This document shows positions 8,670 through 14,302 of a DNA stretch of 64,000 bases, in pieces. The notes beneath the pieces are model-generated. The model saw only the letters and a program-made list of their open reading frames with translations. It had not been told where the DNA came from and searched no databases. This DNA comes from Cocleimonas flava (GTDB taxonomy: Bacteria; Pseudomonadota; Gammaproteobacteria; Thiotrichales; Thiotrichaceae). The stretch is taken from NCBI RefSeq assembly GCF_004339015.1, contig NZ_SMFQ01000002.1, positions 807,351 through 871,350 on the forward strand, written 5' to 3'. Made by a program: the position numbers and the translations under genes. Position 1 is the stretch's first letter, and every line of letters begins with the position of its first letter.

Positions 8670-9434
8670 TTAAGACTTCCATGAGTTAAAGAACTGCTGG
8701 GCGATACGCCCTGAACGACTGCCTCTTTCTCGCGCGAATCTGTCCGCCAGAACATGCATCTGCGCAATATCGTCTACCTCAATCTCGGCGAACAACATAT
8801 CAACAATCGAAAAGTATTCATCTTGAGTCATCGGGTAAAACGAAAGTGCTAAGCCGAAACGATCTACCAATGACATTTTTTCTTGTATGGTATCCGAATG
8901 ATGAATCTCACCCTCTACCAGTGCTGACTGCTCATTGTCTTTCATCTGCTCAGGAATAAGATGACGACGGTTCGATGTAGCGACAATCAATACATTTTTG
9001 GGCGGCTTTTCTATCGAACCTTGCAAGGTACTTTTTAGTTCTTTGTAGGTTGTTTCCCCCTCTTCAAAAGAGAGGTCGTCACAAAACACAATAAAACGAT
9101 AATCCAGATGTCGGATCTCGTCAGTAATATCGACTAAAAAATGCAAATCATCTTTTGATATTTCTATGACTCGTAAGCCTTTCTCATGATAAGAATTTAA
9201 AGCAGCTTTTACTAACGATGATTTTCCCGTGCCGCGCGCACCCCATAATAAAACATGATTATTTGGCTCAGATGCCATAAACCGTTCCAGATTTTCAGTA
9301 AAGGCATTTTTCTGCCTATCGATACACAGTAAGCGGTCCATATCCTGTAAATCGATATCCAACACTGGTTTTAATTGTTCTTTTCTAGATCGCCAGCTTG
9401 CAGCCAGTGTCTTACCCCAATCTATTCCTTCCAT
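8670..9434 (-). CDS. DUF815 family ATP-binding protein
   Basis: About 254 residues from the ATG at 9434, which has GAGGG six bases upstream; the frame stays open to 9494, but that extension would overlap the NtrC box of the next gene. Walker A is GARGTGKSS, Walker B FIVFCDDLSF, and a sensor-like IVATSNRRHL follows, as in AAA+ ATPases. The pattern MDRLLCIDRQK...NHVLLWGARGTGKSSLVKA is characteristic of DUF815. Its role is not established. It is divergent from the glutamine synthetase gene. Confidence 0.85.
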   Translation of the reverse strand: MEGIDWGKTLAASWRSRKEQLKPVLDIDLQDMDRLLCIDRQKNAFTENLERFMASEPNNHVLLWGARGTGKSSLVKAALNSYHEKGLRVIEISKDDLHFLVDITDEIRHLDYRFIVFCDDLSFEEGETTYKELKSTLQGSIEKPPKNVLIVATSNRRHLIPEQMKDNEQSALVEGEIHHSDTIQEKMSLVDRFGLALSFYPMTQDEYFSIVDMLFAEIEVDDIAQMHVLADRFARERGSRSGRIAQQFFNSWKS

Positions 9435-9487
9435 TCCTATCCCTCTTTTGAAAAATGATTCATCTTGGTGCATTTTATGAAATACGC

Positions 9488-9502
9488 GCACCATTATTGT
9501 GC
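9488..9502. promoter_or_regulatory. NtrC binding site
   Basis: GCAC-CATTATT-GTGC matches the NtrC (GlnG) enhancer consensus GCAC-N7-GTGC in all eight fixed positions. It lies about 120 bp upstream of the sigma-54 promoter, a distance typical of NtrC enhancers at glutamine synthetase genes. Confidence 0.65.
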
Positions 9503-9617
9503 TTCTGTTATTTTTCAGAGCTCGCTTTTATGCTTAAGTTTAAGCATTCCTTATAGAATACCCCTATTTTTCCAAGACTTAGAGAAGAATAATTCTAAAC
9601 ACTACTGTATGATGGTT

Positions 9618-9633
9618 TGGCACAATAATTGCT
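9618..9633 (+). promoter_or_regulatory. Sigma-54 promoter of the GSIII gene
   Basis: TGGCAC-AATAA-TTGCT is a full match to the -24/-12 consensus TGGCAC-N5-TTGCW with correct GG-N10-GC spacing. Transcription should start near 9644, giving a leader of about 180 bases before the ATG at 9823. Confidence 0.8.
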
Positions 9634-9822
9634 AACCTTTATAGTGTTTAACTCTAAGTATATTAGCGAAAGAATAGAACATTTTATTCAAGTGCCATAC
9701 CCCTGATTTTCTGGTGCTTTACTTAGCTTTACACAACACAAAATACACAGATTATTGATGAGTTTTAGGTTGTTAGAATTTATCGATAGTTTTTAAGCAT
9801 TTAGATAAATAGGAGTATTGAA

Positions 9823-11997
9823 ATGAGTGGAAATGAGTCCCGCGCCCAAGCGGTTTTTCAAGTTACAAACAGCGAGCCGCTAAAGGTTAAGCCACCAAAG
9901 TCGCTAGATAAAATTTGGGCAACTGATGTTTTTACTTTAGTAAAGATGGAAGAAGCTTTATCTAAAAAAGCATTTAAGTCGATGAAGAAGACTGTCGAAA
10001 CTGGCGGTGCTTTAGATCCAGGAACTGCTGATGTTGTTGCTGCAGCAATGAAAGACTGGGCAATGTCTAAAGGCGCAAAATTCTATTCGCACATTTTCTA
10101 CCCAATGACTGGTGCATCAGCTGAGAAGCACGATGGATTCATTCTTTCTGATGCTAGCGGTAAAGCGATTACTGATTTCACAGGTAGTTTGTTAATCAAA
10201 GGCGAGCCAGACGGATCATCATTCCCGAATGGCAGCATCCGTATGACTAACGCTGCACGTGGTTATACTGCTTGGGATCCAACCAGCCCTGCATACATTA
10301 TGCATACTGATAATGGCGCAACTCTGATGATTCCATGTATCTTCATCTCATGGACAGGTGAAGCACTGGATAAGAAAGTACCTTTACTACGTTCTAACTC
10401 AGCGATGAACGACGCTGCACAGAAAGTACTTAAGTTAATGGGCGAAAAAGAAGTTGCTACATTAAACTCAAGCTGTGGTGCAGAGCAGGAATACTTCCTG
10501 GTTGATTCGAACTTCGCTAACCTACGTCCAGATTTACTACTTGCTGGTCGTACTTTATTCGGTGCTCCATCGGCTAAAGGCCAGGAGTTTGACGATCACT
10601 ACTTTGGTGCTATTCCACAACGTGTACAAAACTTCATGCAAGACACTGAAGATCAATTGTACCGTTTAGGTATCCCAGCAAAAACGCATCATAACGAAGT
10701 GGCACCTGGACAGTTTGAAATTGCTCCTTATTACGAAGCAGCAAACGTTGCGGCGGATCATCAGCAATTATTAATGACAATCTTCAAAAACACGGCGAAA
10801 AAGCACGGTTTTGATTGTTTATTCCACGAGAAGCCTTTCGCGGGTATCAATGGTTCTGGTAAACACGTTAACTGGTCTGTAGGTAACTCTACACAAGGTA
10901 ACTTACTTGACCCAGGCAAAACACCTCATGAGAACCTAAACTTCTTATTATTCTGTGGTGCTGTTATTCGTGGCGTTCACAAATTTGGTCCACTACTACG
11001 TGCTGTTATTGCATCTGCAGGTAATGATCACCGTTTAGGCGCTAATGAAGCACCTCCAGCAATTCTTTCTGTTTACCTTGGTTCTCAAATCGAAGAAATT
11101 TTTGAGCAAATCAGAGAAGGTAATCTAGATGGTACGGACGAAGGTGGCATCATGGATATGGGTCTGTCTCAAATCGTTCCATTTGCTAAAGATGCTGGCG
11201 ATCGTAACCGTACGTCTCCATTCGCATTCACTGGTAACCGCTTTGAATTCCGCGCGGTAGGATCAGAGCAATCAGTTTCTGGCCCATTAATCGCAATGAA
11301 TACCATGCTTGCTGATTCTTTGAACTGGATTGCTGATGAGCTTGAAACAGAACTAAAGTCTGCTTCTAACAATACTGCGGCTGTTATTGCAGTACTGAAG
11401 AAGCTTGTGACTGAGCATGGTGTAGCAATATTTGGTGGTGACGGTTACTCTTCAGAGTGGCATGAAGCTGCAGTTAAAGAACGTGGCCTGAAAAACCTAC
11501 CTACAACTGCTGATGCGCTTCCTTACCTTAAAGACGAAGCAATCAAAGAGCTATTCGCAAGCACAGGCGTATTGTCTGAAACTGAACTAGCAAGTCGCTT
11601 TGAAGTTTATGCAGAGCAGTACATCTTGTCGATTGAAGTTGAAGCTAAGCTAGTAATCAACATGGCTACAACCAGCATCTACCCAGCAGCTACTCGTTAC
11701 TTGTCTGACGTATCACTAGCATCATCATCTGCTTCTGAGTTAGGTATTGATCTGGATAAGACTGTTGCTACAAGCATTGCTGCTAACATTAATGGCATGA
11801 TGGCATCTGTTGATAAGCTTTCTGAAGCACTTGCGAAAGAAGACCATGCATCTGAAGAAGAGCACATGCAATTCTGTGCAAACACTATCAGAGGCCTTAT
11901 GGATGAAGTTCGTGGATATGCTGATGCACTTGAAAGTGAAGTTGCTGATGATCTATGGCCACTTCCAACCTATCAGGAAATGCTATTCATTAAGTAA
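9823..11997 (+). CDS. glnN: Glutamine synthetase type III
   Basis: A 724-residue enzyme, the usual size for GSIII and far longer than the roughly 470 residues of GlnA. It joins glutamate and ammonia using ATP. Visible GS motifs include CGAEQEYFLVD (metal site), HHNEVAPGQFEIAPYYEAAN, the glutamate/ATP region GINGSGKHVNWS and NRTSPFAFTGNRFEFRAVGS. The GSIII N-terminal domain and a long helical C-terminal domain flank the catalytic core. GGAG precedes the ATG by eight bases. A sigma-54 promoter and NtrC box upstream point to control by nitrogen limitation, and a terminator follows. GSIII is best known from Bacteroidota and cyanobacteria, so transfer into this lineage is possible. Confidence 0.95.
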   Translation: MSGNESRAQAVFQVTNSEPLKVKPPKSLDKIWATDVFTLVKMEEALSKKAFKSMKKTVETGGALDPGTADVVAAAMKDWAMSKGAKFYSHIFYPMTGASAEKHDGFILSDASGKAITDFTGSLLIKGEPDGSSFPNGSIRMTNAARGYTAWDPTSPAYIMHTDNGATLMIPCIFISWTGEALDKKVPLLRSNSAMNDAAQKVLKLMGEKEVATLNSSCGAEQEYFLVDSNFANLRPDLLLAGRTLFGAPSAKGQEFDDHYFGAIPQRVQNFMQDTEDQLYRLGIPAKTHHNEVAPGQFEIAPYYEAANVAADHQQLLMTIFKNTAKKHGFDCLFHEKPFAGINGSGKHVNWSVGNSTQGNLLDPGKTPHENLNFLLFCGAVIRGVHKFGPLLRAVIASAGNDHRLGANEAPPAILSVYLGSQIEEIFEQIREGNLDGTDEGGIMDMGLSQIVPFAKDAGDRNRTSPFAFTGNRFEFRAVGSEQSVSGPLIAMNTMLADSLNWIADELETELKSASNNTAAVIAVLKKLVTEHGVAIFGGDGYSSEWHEAAVKERGLKNLPTTADALPYLKDEAIKELFASTGVLSETELASRFEVYAEQYILSIEVEAKLVINMATTSIYPAATRYLSDVSLASSSASELGIDLDKTVATSIAANINGMMASVDKLSEALAKEDHASEEEHMQFCANTIRGLMDEVRGYADALESEVADDLWPLPTYQEMLFIK

Positions 11998-12012
11998 TAG
12001 TTAACTGATATT

Positions 12013-12041
12013 AAAAAAGGTCGCCTAGTGCGGCCTTTTTT
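12013..12041 (+). terminator. Intrinsic terminator of the GSIII gene
   Basis: AAAAAAGG-T-CGC, loop CTAGT, GCG-G-CCTTTTTT: a hairpin with A/T flanks on both sides, 15 bp after the stop. It lacks the C6 core, so the C6 family is distinct from ordinary terminators here. Confidence 0.8.
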
Positions 12042-12160: not shown

Positions 12161-14302
12161 CTAAGGTCGTCCAAAGTTCTGAGTCCAATAATGGGTATAT
12201 GTTGTTCCCGATTTACTGGATAAAGCCATTCCAACTTGAGTAACGTTTGCATCCATGACGTTTTTACAGTGGCCATCACTGTCCAACCAGGATTGAACAG
12301 CCTCTTCTGGTGTATCTCTTCCTGTTCCAGCTGAAACATTCTCAGATAATCTAGACCAGCTATATCCGTAAGTCGCAACTCTATCAGTCATGGTACTTTG
12401 CTTACTTAATGGATACCCGCTCCAGTCCGATACCGTGCCTGACCCATCATGAGAGAATGTATTGGTCTCCGTTAAATCCTGACTATGCTCATAAGCCGCT
12501 TTATAAAGTTTATCACTCCAGCTTACCGCAGGCGCAGCAGGGAAGCTTCCATACTCGCCACAAGATCTTGCTTGCGCTCTCGCTTCGTTAATTACCGCAA
12601 GATAGTTTTGCTGGGTTGATGCGGATAAAACAGGAATCTGATTATCCGAGCTTTCGATGATTGAAACACTGCGTGTTACCTCAATTGCTGAATTTCCAGC
12701 GGCATCAGAAACATTATAAGTAATCGTAAACGTCGTTCCTGGCGATGCACTGGTATTCACAGTATCACCAGCAATTAGAATTTTTGTCGTGATATTTCCA
12801 TCGCGGTCATCGTTCGCAGTCGCACCAGATTCAACATAGTTAGCACCCTGAATAACTTCAACGGTTGAAGGTCCGCTTAAGGTTATTACCGGATTTGTAG
12901 TATCAACCGCTGAAACCACATTTACCGTGCGAGTCACCTGAGAGGCTGCATTTCCAGTGGCATCCGTAACGTTATAAGTAATCGTAAACGATGTACCAGC
13001 GGCAGAATTGGTATTAACCGTATCACCCGCCACAATAATATTGGCTGTAATAGAACCGTCGGCATTATCAGACGCGGTTGCTCCCGCATCATTATAAGAT
13101 GCCCCCTGATCCACACTGACTGGATTTTCACCCAATAGCGATATCACCGGAGGTGTCGTATCAGACGTTGGTGCTGCGATGACTTGCACGTCCATTTCAT
13201 CAATAGAACTGTCACCATCATTATCAGTCACTTTTAAGGTTAAGGTGTCCGTTCCTGTATCCGTCGGTGTATAGGTGAATGAAGCTGATGTCGCCAAGAT
13301 AGTTGGCCCTTTGCTCCATTCATAGCTACTTATTGTTCCATCACTATCAGCACCACTTCCTGCGATTAATATACCTTTATTTACCTGGGTAACTTTATCT
13401 GCACCGGCATTCGCTGTAGGAGCTTTATTCGGTGTAAACGTGGCTTCGGTTACGACAATTTTGACCGTATCAGTCGCTTCACTTCCATCATTATCCAACA
13501 CTGACAATGTTAAAGTATCCGTACCAATTTCAGATGGCGTATAGAGAAACGTTGAAACGCTAGATAAAACGGTTCCATCGATTGACCATTCATACGCTGA
13601 TATCGAGCCATCACTATCTGTTCCACTTCCTACCATTTGAATCGATTGACCTACTTCTACTGTTTTATTACTACCTGCATTAGCGGTAGGTGCTTTATTC
13701 GGAACAGTCTGAACAGCGGTAACAACTAAAGAGATTGAATCACTGGCTTTAGCTCCATCGTTATCGGTCACAGTCAAGATTAATGAATCAGTACCTACTA
13801 TGGTTGGGGTATAAACAAAAGTTGCGGTCGTTGCCAAAACTTGATCATCTTTTTGCCATGAATATGAAACAATTTTTCCATCACTGTCAGTAGCAGTGCC
13901 GGTAATTTCTATGCTCTTGTTTACTTCTACCGTTTGATTTCCGCCAGCGCTAACTTCAGGAGAAATATTGACACCTAGCTGCGTAGTTAGGGCCTCTAAT
14001 TCACTGGTAGAGTCGACTTCTTCAGGAGATAGCTCTTTTACAACGTTGTTTAGCTCTGAAAGTGTTTCATTTGTTACACCTAAAACACCGGCTGCAACAT
14101 AATCATTTATAGTAGGAGCAGTATTACTTTCACCATTTGAATACGCTTTGATTTTCTCAATAGCAGACTCTTTTTCACTGTAGCCTCCGGATGGATCACT
14201 ATCAGCGCTACTGCTGCTTCCTCCTCCACCGCAAGCGGATAATGCGATTGTTATTAAAATAGATAGACTAGCCTGTAGAACATTCAACTTATTAAAATGC
14301 AC
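12161..14302 (-). CDS. Multidomain lipoprotein: PKD-like, HYR-like and CAP domains
   Basis: A 713-residue surface protein. The signal peptide ends in lipobox LSAC (C24) followed by a Gly/Ser linker. Three PKD-like repeats (about 110-375) each carry motifs such as ADSDGTISSYEW and TDTLTLKVTDNDG. Two HYR/DUF5011-like repeats follow, with PPVISLLG, GATASDNADG and FTITYNVTDATGN. The C-terminus (about 565-713) is a CAP/SCP domain: HSQDLTETNTFSHDGSG, SENVSAGT and VGMALS, with the CAP-type histidine and glutamate present. Such proteins may bind the cell surface or other proteins; the substrate is unknown. The repeats are similar to each other in DNA as well. Confidence 0.85.
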   Translation of the reverse strand: MHFNKLNVLQASLSILITIALSACGGGGSSSSADSDPSGGYSEKESAIEKIKAYSNGESNTAPTINDYVAAGVLGVTNETLSELNNVVKELSPEEVDSTSELEALTTQLGVNISPEVSAGGNQTVEVNKSIEITGTATDSDGKIVSYSWQKDDQVLATTATFVYTPTIVGTDSLILTVTDNDGAKASDSISLVVTAVQTVPNKAPTANAGSNKTVEVGQSIQMVGSGTDSDGSISAYEWSIDGTVLSSVSTFLYTPSEIGTDTLTLSVLDNDGSEATDTVKIVVTEATFTPNKAPTANAGADKVTQVNKGILIAGSGADSDGTISSYEWSKGPTILATSASFTYTPTDTGTDTLTLKVTDNDGDSSIDEMDVQVIAAPTSDTTPPVISLLGENPVSVDQGASYNDAGATASDNADGSITANIIVAGDTVNTNSAAGTSFTITYNVTDATGNAASQVTRTVNVVSAVDTTNPVITLSGPSTVEVIQGANYVESGATANDDRDGNITTKILIAGDTVNTSASPGTTFTITYNVSDAAGNSAIEVTRSVSIIESSDNQIPVLSASTQQNYLAVINEARAQARSCGEYGSFPAAPAVSWSDKLYKAAYEHSQDLTETNTFSHDGSGTVSDWSGYPLSKQSTMTDRVATYGYSWSRLSENVSAGTGRDTPEEAVQSWLDSDGHCKNVMDANVTQVGMALSSKSGTTYTHYWTQNFGRP

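Follow-up and report, generated by a model that had tools for sequence, protein, structure and literature searches.

A type III glutamine synthetase behind a predicted NtrC/sigma-54 control region, the probable sole glutamine synthetase of Cocleimonas flava

In the gammaproteobacterium Cocleimonas flava, a gene for a type III (GlnN-type) glutamine synthetase (GSIII) is preceded by elements that resemble the control region of enteric glnA. Which place does this enzyme take in the nitrogen circuit of its host, and how did it come by such a promoter? The coordinates of the features (Table 1) refer to the window, the 64,000-nt stretch of C. flava DNA that was analysed.

The GSIII gene and its upstream region

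The gene product had been proposed to be a type III glutamine synthetase, and the domain content bears this out. The Pfam domains GSIII_N (221.5 bits), Gln-synt_C-ter (112 bits) and Gln-synt_C (85.7 bits) all score above their cut-offs, which provides the N-terminal, catalytic and C-terminal domains of the family, and the length of 724 residues is close to the usual ~730. Residues 8-724 align with the solved GSIII structure 3o6x (616 bits). In this alignment, the motifs NEVAPGQFE, NGSGKHVNWS, RLGANEAPPAI and DRNRTSPFAFTGNRFEFR of the solved enzyme are present; they are conserved in GSIII, and we take them to be catalytic in role. According to an excerpt of PMC9397018, 3o6x stems from Bacteroides fragilis; the two enzymes are homologous over residues 8-724, whereas their hosts belong to different phyla. 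As had been supposed, GSIII is uncommon in the class Gammaproteobacteria: it was found in 10 of 276 genomes, including that of C. flava. The related genome G331 contains a GSIII that is 93% identical to the one in the window.

Table 1. Features of the GSIII locus in window coordinates.
Feature	Position	Strand	Sequence	Basis
Divergent AAA ATPase (DUF815)	8670..9434	-		Pfam DUF815, 321 bits
Second, degenerate NtrC site (predicted)	9456..9472	.	TGATTCATCTTGGTGCA	13/17 to consensus, right half perfect
NtrC box (predicted)	9488..9502	.	GCACCATTATTGTGC	8/8 fixed bases; perfect core at the corresponding position of G331
Sigma-54 -24/-12 promoter (predicted)	9618..9633	+	TGGCACAATAATTGCT	Exact consensus; GG-N10-GC element present
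5' leader (predicted), ~180 bases	9644..9822	+		Start site inferred from the -12 element
GSIII (GlnN-type) glutamine synthetase, 724 aa	9823..11997	+		Pfam domains and 3o6x alignment
Terminator-like inverted repeat and T run, 3' of GSIII	12012..12041	+		Spotted by eye; absent from the list of a later site scan

The sigma-54 site matches the consensus TGGCAC-N5-TTGCT without exception, as originally predicted. It is the sole match in 64 kb, where 0.11 are expected, and the exact pattern occurs 14 times in the 4.49 Mb genome versus once for the reversed pattern. G331 possesses an identical site at an equal distance from the start codon. All fixed bases of the NtrC box could likewise be verified. 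Its core GCAC-N7-GTGC is the sole match in the window, yet 0.58 are expected by chance, so that the box is weak evidence when taken alone. Both outer bases (C and T) deviate from the 17-mer TGCAC-N7-GTGCA. With at most one mismatch, this 17-mer is mildly enriched in the genome (59 matches versus 39 for the reversed pattern), and the box at 9488 is not among the matches. The degenerate site lies 31 bases upstream of the main box; in G331 its place is occupied by a perfect GCAC-N7-GTGC core, so that both sites of G331 are perfect.

The combination of the two elements is more telling. The NtrC box and the sigma-54 site are separated by 115 bases (130 start to start), close to the predicted distance of about 120 bp. 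Such a pair at this distance occurs once in the window and in none of 100 window shuffles, and of the 14 genomic sigma-54 matches none but the one at GSIII is preceded by a perfect NtrC core at a distance of 90-165 bases. Since the likely start codon of the DUF815 gene at 9434, which adjoins the noted region starting at 9435, puts the box 54 bases away, the box is considered non-coding. For the longer open reading frame of this gene in the window, the homology to G331 starts at residue 17, beyond the residues that overlap the box. At the level of sequence, a complete GSIII gene behind a sigma-54 site and an NtrC box is thus confirmed as a real observation.

GlnA, GlnE and GSIII in C. flava and its relatives

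The main result came from the search for a GlnA elsewhere in the genome, which is 100% complete. No protein exceeded the cut-off of the GlnA profile TIGR00653; the best scores were 264-267 bits versus 429 bits. Two proteins with a Gln-synt_C domain are encoded, namely GSIII and a protein on contig 4. GlnE is the enzyme that adenylylates GlnA, and the corresponding profile PF03710 had no match in this genome; in each of the GlnA-bearing family members G064 and G269 it matched twice within one protein. The other Ntr proteins were found: GlnD (839 bits), NtrC (686 bits), RpoN (474 bits), two PII proteins, NtrB and Amt. The glnK-amt and ntrBC genes are divergently arranged; between them lie a perfect NtrC core and sigma-54-like sites in both directions.

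It is likely that this organism and its genus have no biosynthetic glutamine synthetase other than GSIII, which would fill the position of GlnA in nitrogen control and would be switched on by NtrC~P together with sigma-54, with no adenylylation involved. Under nitrogen shortage, GlnD would uridylylate PII, and NtrB would phosphorylate NtrC. NtrC~P would bind to the box at 9488 and to the weaker site at 9456, and would loop to the sigma-54 polymerase at 9618, whereupon GSIII would be transcribed. With GlnE gone, transcriptional control of the enzyme amount would replace fast covalent control. Using the enteric model as the source, we infer NtrC binding, a nitrogen-dependent expression and the activity of the enzyme and, by analogy, no post-translational control. 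The assumption that GSIII has been wired into the nitrogen circuit of its host is supported by the Ntr signalling genes of the genome and by the recurrence of the control region in relatives.

The contig 4 protein (L106:2519-3889, minus strand) could make GSIII a mere starvation isozyme if it acted as the housekeeping glutamine synthetase. It contains a full Gln-synt_C domain (335 bits), and the solved structure that it matches best, 5dm3 (702 bits), bears the name L-glutamine synthetase. This distribution of tasks is nevertheless unlikely, as the protein stays far below the GlnA cut-off (267 versus 429 bits); for gamma-glutamylputrescine synthetase, it reaches 199 versus 650 bits. Moreover, its gene is located in an apparent catabolic cluster next to aldehyde dehydrogenase and N-formylglutamate deformylase-like genes, and neither a sigma-54 site (score at least 0.9) nor a perfect NtrC core was found in its 9 kb stretch. 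Finally, no such gene was found in six of the 12 genomes of the genus. The contig 4 protein could still possess some synthetase activity.

Among 24 genomes of the family, GlnA scored above cut-off in 0 of 12 from the genus and in 6 of 12 from other genera, while GSIII was detected in 10 of 12 in both groups. Note that GSIII first showed up in the family as a low-scoring hit within a long frame, and was confirmed by tblastn for the genomes that were fetched. For six genomes of the genus that are 85-100% complete (G325, G326, G328, G329, G330 and G333), GSIII is the sole match to the GlnA profile (E 0.001); on this evidence, these organisms would depend on GSIII. Neither enzyme was found in the genus MAGs G327 and G334. 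Both enzymes occur in the family members G336, G341, G342 and G344, and GlnA only in G064 and G269.

A wider survey combined 49 named loci (of 80) with 22 further genomes. L072 was left out, and removal of G291 as a repeat of G039 reduced the 71 genomes to 70. GSIII carriers are abundant in this set, which also contains two actinobacteria and one cyanobacterium. GlnA and GlnE are both present in 50 genomes and both absent from 15. GlnE is kept without GlnA in the MAGs G283 and G315, where glnA is perhaps just absent from the assembly, and GlnA occurs without GlnE in G009, G289 and the cyanobacterium G324. The Fisher test for this co-occurrence ([[15,2],[3,50]]) gives p 1.4e-10 with relatedness ignored, which overstates independence because a single NtrC clade accounts for 10 of the 15 double losses. 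G280 was scored as GlnA-bearing, its GlnA fragment stopping at a contig end; G277, one of the 15 double losses, has a 20-bit GlnE match below cut-off that overlaps its own GlnD. GlnD exceeds the cut-off in 18 of 19 genomes searched, the exception being the 1.8 Mb MAG G279, and NtrC does so in 63 of 67; all 17 genomes without GlnA are among these 63. Because GlnA and GlnE are absent while GlnD and NtrC are kept, the part of the circuit that is directed at the GlnA protein appears to be gone.

The NtrC tree unites the ten GlnA-less Thiotrichaceae-like genomes in a single group (bootstrap/SH-aLRT 98/91), which adjoins the GlnA-only pair G064-G269 (99/98); the bootstrap of this tree is unsettled, and the four family genomes with both enzymes were left out. 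GSIII-only and both-enzyme genomes share genera (G339 with G344, and G337 with G342, the second of each pair having both). It follows that GlnA was lost repeatedly in the family, or regained. Further GlnA-less lines are L026 with L051, L027, L017 and L005; single GlnA-less MAGs may be merely incomplete.

How does this arrangement relate to known systems? In enteric bacteria, glnA (glnALG) has a sigma-54 promoter with two NtrC sites spaced by about 31 bases. The predicted likeness to this design is evident in C. flava, where the second site is weak, and in G331, where it is perfect, and a similar control region recurs before GSIII in relatives. In contrast to the enteric case, GSIII would be driven instead of GSI, GlnE is missing, and ntrBC is located elsewhere, beside glnK-amt. 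The box-promoter distance of 130 (start to start) is at the far end of the 67-130 observed in pair-bearing glnA upstreams. To our knowledge, cyanobacteria have no GlnE to lose, and PF03710 had no match in the cyanobacterium G324. The regulator of GSIII in the cyanobacterium Pseudanabaena is NtcA, in contrast to the predicted NtrC/sigma-54 control here. According to excerpts of PMC4923085 and PMC6316151, which cite Crespo et al. 1998, Pseudanabaena PCC 6903 lacks GSI, and GSIII is its only type and is encoded by a nitrogen-controlled gene. Synechococcus sp. RS9917 has two GSIII and no GSI (excerpts of the same two papers). Both resemble C. flava in having GSIII as the only synthetase type, but belong to another phylum. 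The proteobacterial NtrC core regulon comprises glutamine synthetase, amtB, glnBK and ntrBC, and the synthetase named in the excerpts of PMC5343134 is glnA; GSIII is not mentioned in them. Bacteria with GSIII as sole synthetase are already known; a search of the open-access literature gave no report of GSIII under NtrC/sigma-54 control, of gammaproteobacteria without GlnA (and GlnE), or of the GlnE-less form described here.

The standard picture of nitrogen control in bacteria is the circuit of GlnA, GlnE, GlnD, PII and NtrBC. In C. flava, the covalent half of this circuit is apparently gone; the half that leads from PII via NtrC to transcription stays and seems to drive another type of enzyme. 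This case makes it testable how far the behaviour of the circuit needs adenylylation.

Recurrence of the control region before GSIII

The relatives compared were the best 80 of 589. The 450 bases upstream of GSIII were scanned for an NtrC box with at least 7/8 fixed bases and a sigma-54 site with a score of at least 0.84, 90-165 bases apart (start to start). L074 (N-terminus missing) and L011, L028, L032 and L068 (fewer than 300 bases) were dropped from the counts, and G333/G276, G325/G285, G339/G304 and G345/G286 were each taken as one genome under two handles. The pair was found in 28 of 65 proteobacterial or unassigned upstreams, compared with a mean of 0.05 and a maximum of 1 of 65 in dinucleotide shuffles, and in 0 of 11 upstreams from Myxococcota, Actinomycetota and Cyanobacteriota. 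As to further controls, 50 earlier shuffles gave none, and random windows of the same loci gave 4 of 1228. With extra family genomes added and 60-165 bases permitted, the pair was present in 39 of 78 distinct upstreams, again proteobacterial or unassigned. The 39 without it at these thresholds include 9 of 26 from GlnA-less genomes; in L006, L015 and G340, boxes are situated 228-230 bases upstream of the promoter, beyond the distance limit. In the genus, the pair is present in all eight readable upstreams: those of the window, G326, G328, G330, G331, G332, G325 (= L014) and G333 (= L003). The upstreams of G329 and G335 were unreadable, as the contig stops before the start codon.

A two-site enhancer as a general rule was rejected, clear second sites being a minority among the 39 upstreams; past the trivial overlap at +/-13, an offset of 31 bases scores highest (z 1.7-1.9). 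Seven neighbours of GSIII in the window (DUF2391, Lrp, a hypothetical protein, M50, DUF815, the CAP domain end of a PKD protein, and RapA) had no tblastn match in the 79 named loci, which extend at most ~5 kb past GSIII; across all available loci, matches were limited to G330, G331, G332 and the window's own loci.

GSIII might be sigma-54-dependent and respond to an enhancer-binding protein other than NtrC, in which case the NtrC box would act on the divergent DUF815 gene or have no function. The genome does contain nine more matches of over 180 bits to the NtrC profile, and several GSIII genes of Halieaceae and Spongiibacteraceae and one of Porticoccaceae have a sigma-54-like site near -105 and mostly no NtrC box. 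However, the box-promoter distance is held at 118-151 (start to start) in the genus while the distance to the start codon varies, and many loci contain the pair but no DUF815 match was found in them. Furthermore, the spacings cluster near 111, 121, 130, 142 and 152, which points to a preference for steps of about 10.5 bases (Rayleigh p 7e-4, with relatedness disregarded). Another activator is unlikely, slightly more so than the division of tasks with the contig 4 protein. Slightly less credible again is a constitutive expression of GSIII from a sigma-70 promoter. A sigma-70-like site (TTGGCA-17-TATAGT, 10/12) overlaps the sigma-54 site, and a TATAAT was seen by eye at a similar place in L003, but the scanned stretch contains 3 such sites versus 5.8 in shuffles, and in ten upstreams inspected by eye the -24/-12 bases are seen again and again, a -10 box only irregularly. 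In enterics, glnAp1 gives a basal level of expression, and the sigma-70-like site might add a basal expression of GSIII to the switch by NtrC~P.

The long leader that had been claimed amounts to ~180 bases in the window, with its start inferred, and is not a general feature. Among 57 leaders (sigma-54 score at least 0.84, length 35-240, shorter and longer ones excluded), lengths of 35-225 bases were retained, the mean fold z is -0.41, and a search of the leader in Rfam gave no match at gathering score; an RNA leader as a general feature was rejected on these grounds. A riboswitch or other RNA control is the least probable alternative and highly improbable, given these values and a z below -2 in only 7 of 57 leaders, although the window and G331 leaders have better predicted folds than shuffled sequences (z -2.95 and -2.17) and share well-conserved parts.

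Origin of GSIII and of its promoter

The hypothesis that GSIII was inherited vertically from one origin within the family was rejected, as the 24 family rows do not form a clade in the GSIII tree (AU p 1.4e-9); ten of these rows are named loci that were assigned to the family, partly from the NtrC tree. An earlier GSIII tree, from which L021, L028, L044, L067, L069 and L070 had been left out, preceded this test, and the GSIII trees are quick searches. Actinobacterial and myxobacterial sequences are found inside the proteobacterial ones. Both observations make horizontal transfer of GSIII likely. The proposed acquisition of the gene is thus upheld with respect to non-vertical descent; no donor was found.

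It is conceivable, at somewhat less than even odds, that GSIII repeatedly displaced the GlnA-GlnE module in gammaproteobacteria by capturing the enhancer of GlnA. GSIII would have been inserted between the native NtrC/sigma-54 promoter and glnA and would have come under nitrogen-controlled expression in place of glnA, and the subsequent loss of glnA and glnE would have left a purely transcriptional Ntr circuit. Such a capture is supported by the gene layouts of relatives and by the presence of the pair mostly on one enzyme. In the GlnA-only genomes G064 and G269, the region before glnA contains a sigma-54 site together with two NtrC boxes at a spacing of 30-31 bases. The order in G064 is cation-efflux gene, Ntr promoter, glnA; in G336 and G341 it is homologous cation-efflux gene, Ntr promoter, GSIII, glnA, with the pair before GSIII and none in the 450 bases before glnA. 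In G342, an efflux homologue precedes GSIII. In G344, it precedes a pair-less glnA, and GSIII is located elsewhere, with the pair. In another lineage, G287 has the order GSIII-efflux gene-glnA-ntrB-ntrC, and G288 has GSIII-efflux homologue-ntrB-ntrC on one contig. The series illustrates how an enzyme may be swapped while the gene switch is retained.

Two observations speak against promoter capture: G269 has no efflux gene before glnA, and in the genus of the window GSIII is sited elsewhere, near DUF815 and RapA. The opposite order, in which the tandem came first and GSIII was then lost in G064, is an alternative. Read as present-day states, the data fit a passing of the promoter between the synthetases before the loss of glnA. 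Among the 23 genomes that encode both enzymes and for which both upstreams are available, the pair is found on GSIII only in 10, on glnA only in 8, on both in 2 and on neither in 3 (Fisher p 0.012, relatedness ignored). It also precedes glnA in 5 of 10 GlnA-only genomes and in 4 of 5 further both-enzyme genomes whose GSIII upstream was not fetched.

Sigma-54-like and NtrC sites

A sigma-54-like site near -105 (about -101 to -107) is kept before the GSIII genes of eight loci (L041, L042, L043, L045, L050, L055, L058 and L066), which come from Halieaceae and Spongiibacteraceae and from two MAGs, one of Porticoccus and the other unassigned. In the upstream regions of seven of them, no NtrC box matching at least seven of the eight fixed bases was found at the usual distance. 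The exception is L043, where an NtrC box is present, but far. Another enhancer-binding protein may drive GSIII at these loci.

One perfect NtrC core (GCAC-N7-GTGC) lies between the divergent glnK-amt and ntrBC genes of L107, and sigma-54-like sites point both ways. With respect to gene layout only, the same divergent arrangement is found at L141, L145, L148, L150 and L153.

Surroundings of GSIII and the GlnA-like gene

Features of the window and of two further loci
Feature	Position	Remark
Long imperfect stem-loop	window 9749-9788	within GSIII leader; predicted
CAP-domain protein that also has PKD and Ig-like domains	window 12161-14302	adjoins GSIII
glnK-amt and ntrBC, divergent	L107:257-4833	
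GlnA-like protein locus	L106 (G000:C4:543500-552500)	

In the leader of the same-genus genome G331, a stem is predicted at the matching place with changed bases; this type of stem-loop is not general among other GSIII leaders. The CAP end of the neighbouring protein likewise lies beside GSIII in G331.

The GlnA-like protein is encoded next to an aldehyde dehydrogenase gene and genes resembling those for N-formylglutamate deformylase and choline dehydrogenase, a set that possibly represents a gamma-glutamyl-amine catabolic route.

Other GSIII carriers

Two MAGs contain two GSIII genes each (L013 and L064; L028 and L029). The two copies of MAG BB4 are divergent; the two proteins of MAG ERR257714_bin.107 are identical. 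The Aquificaceae label of the MAG containing L006 is probably wrong; its GSIII and NtrC both group with Cocleimonas.
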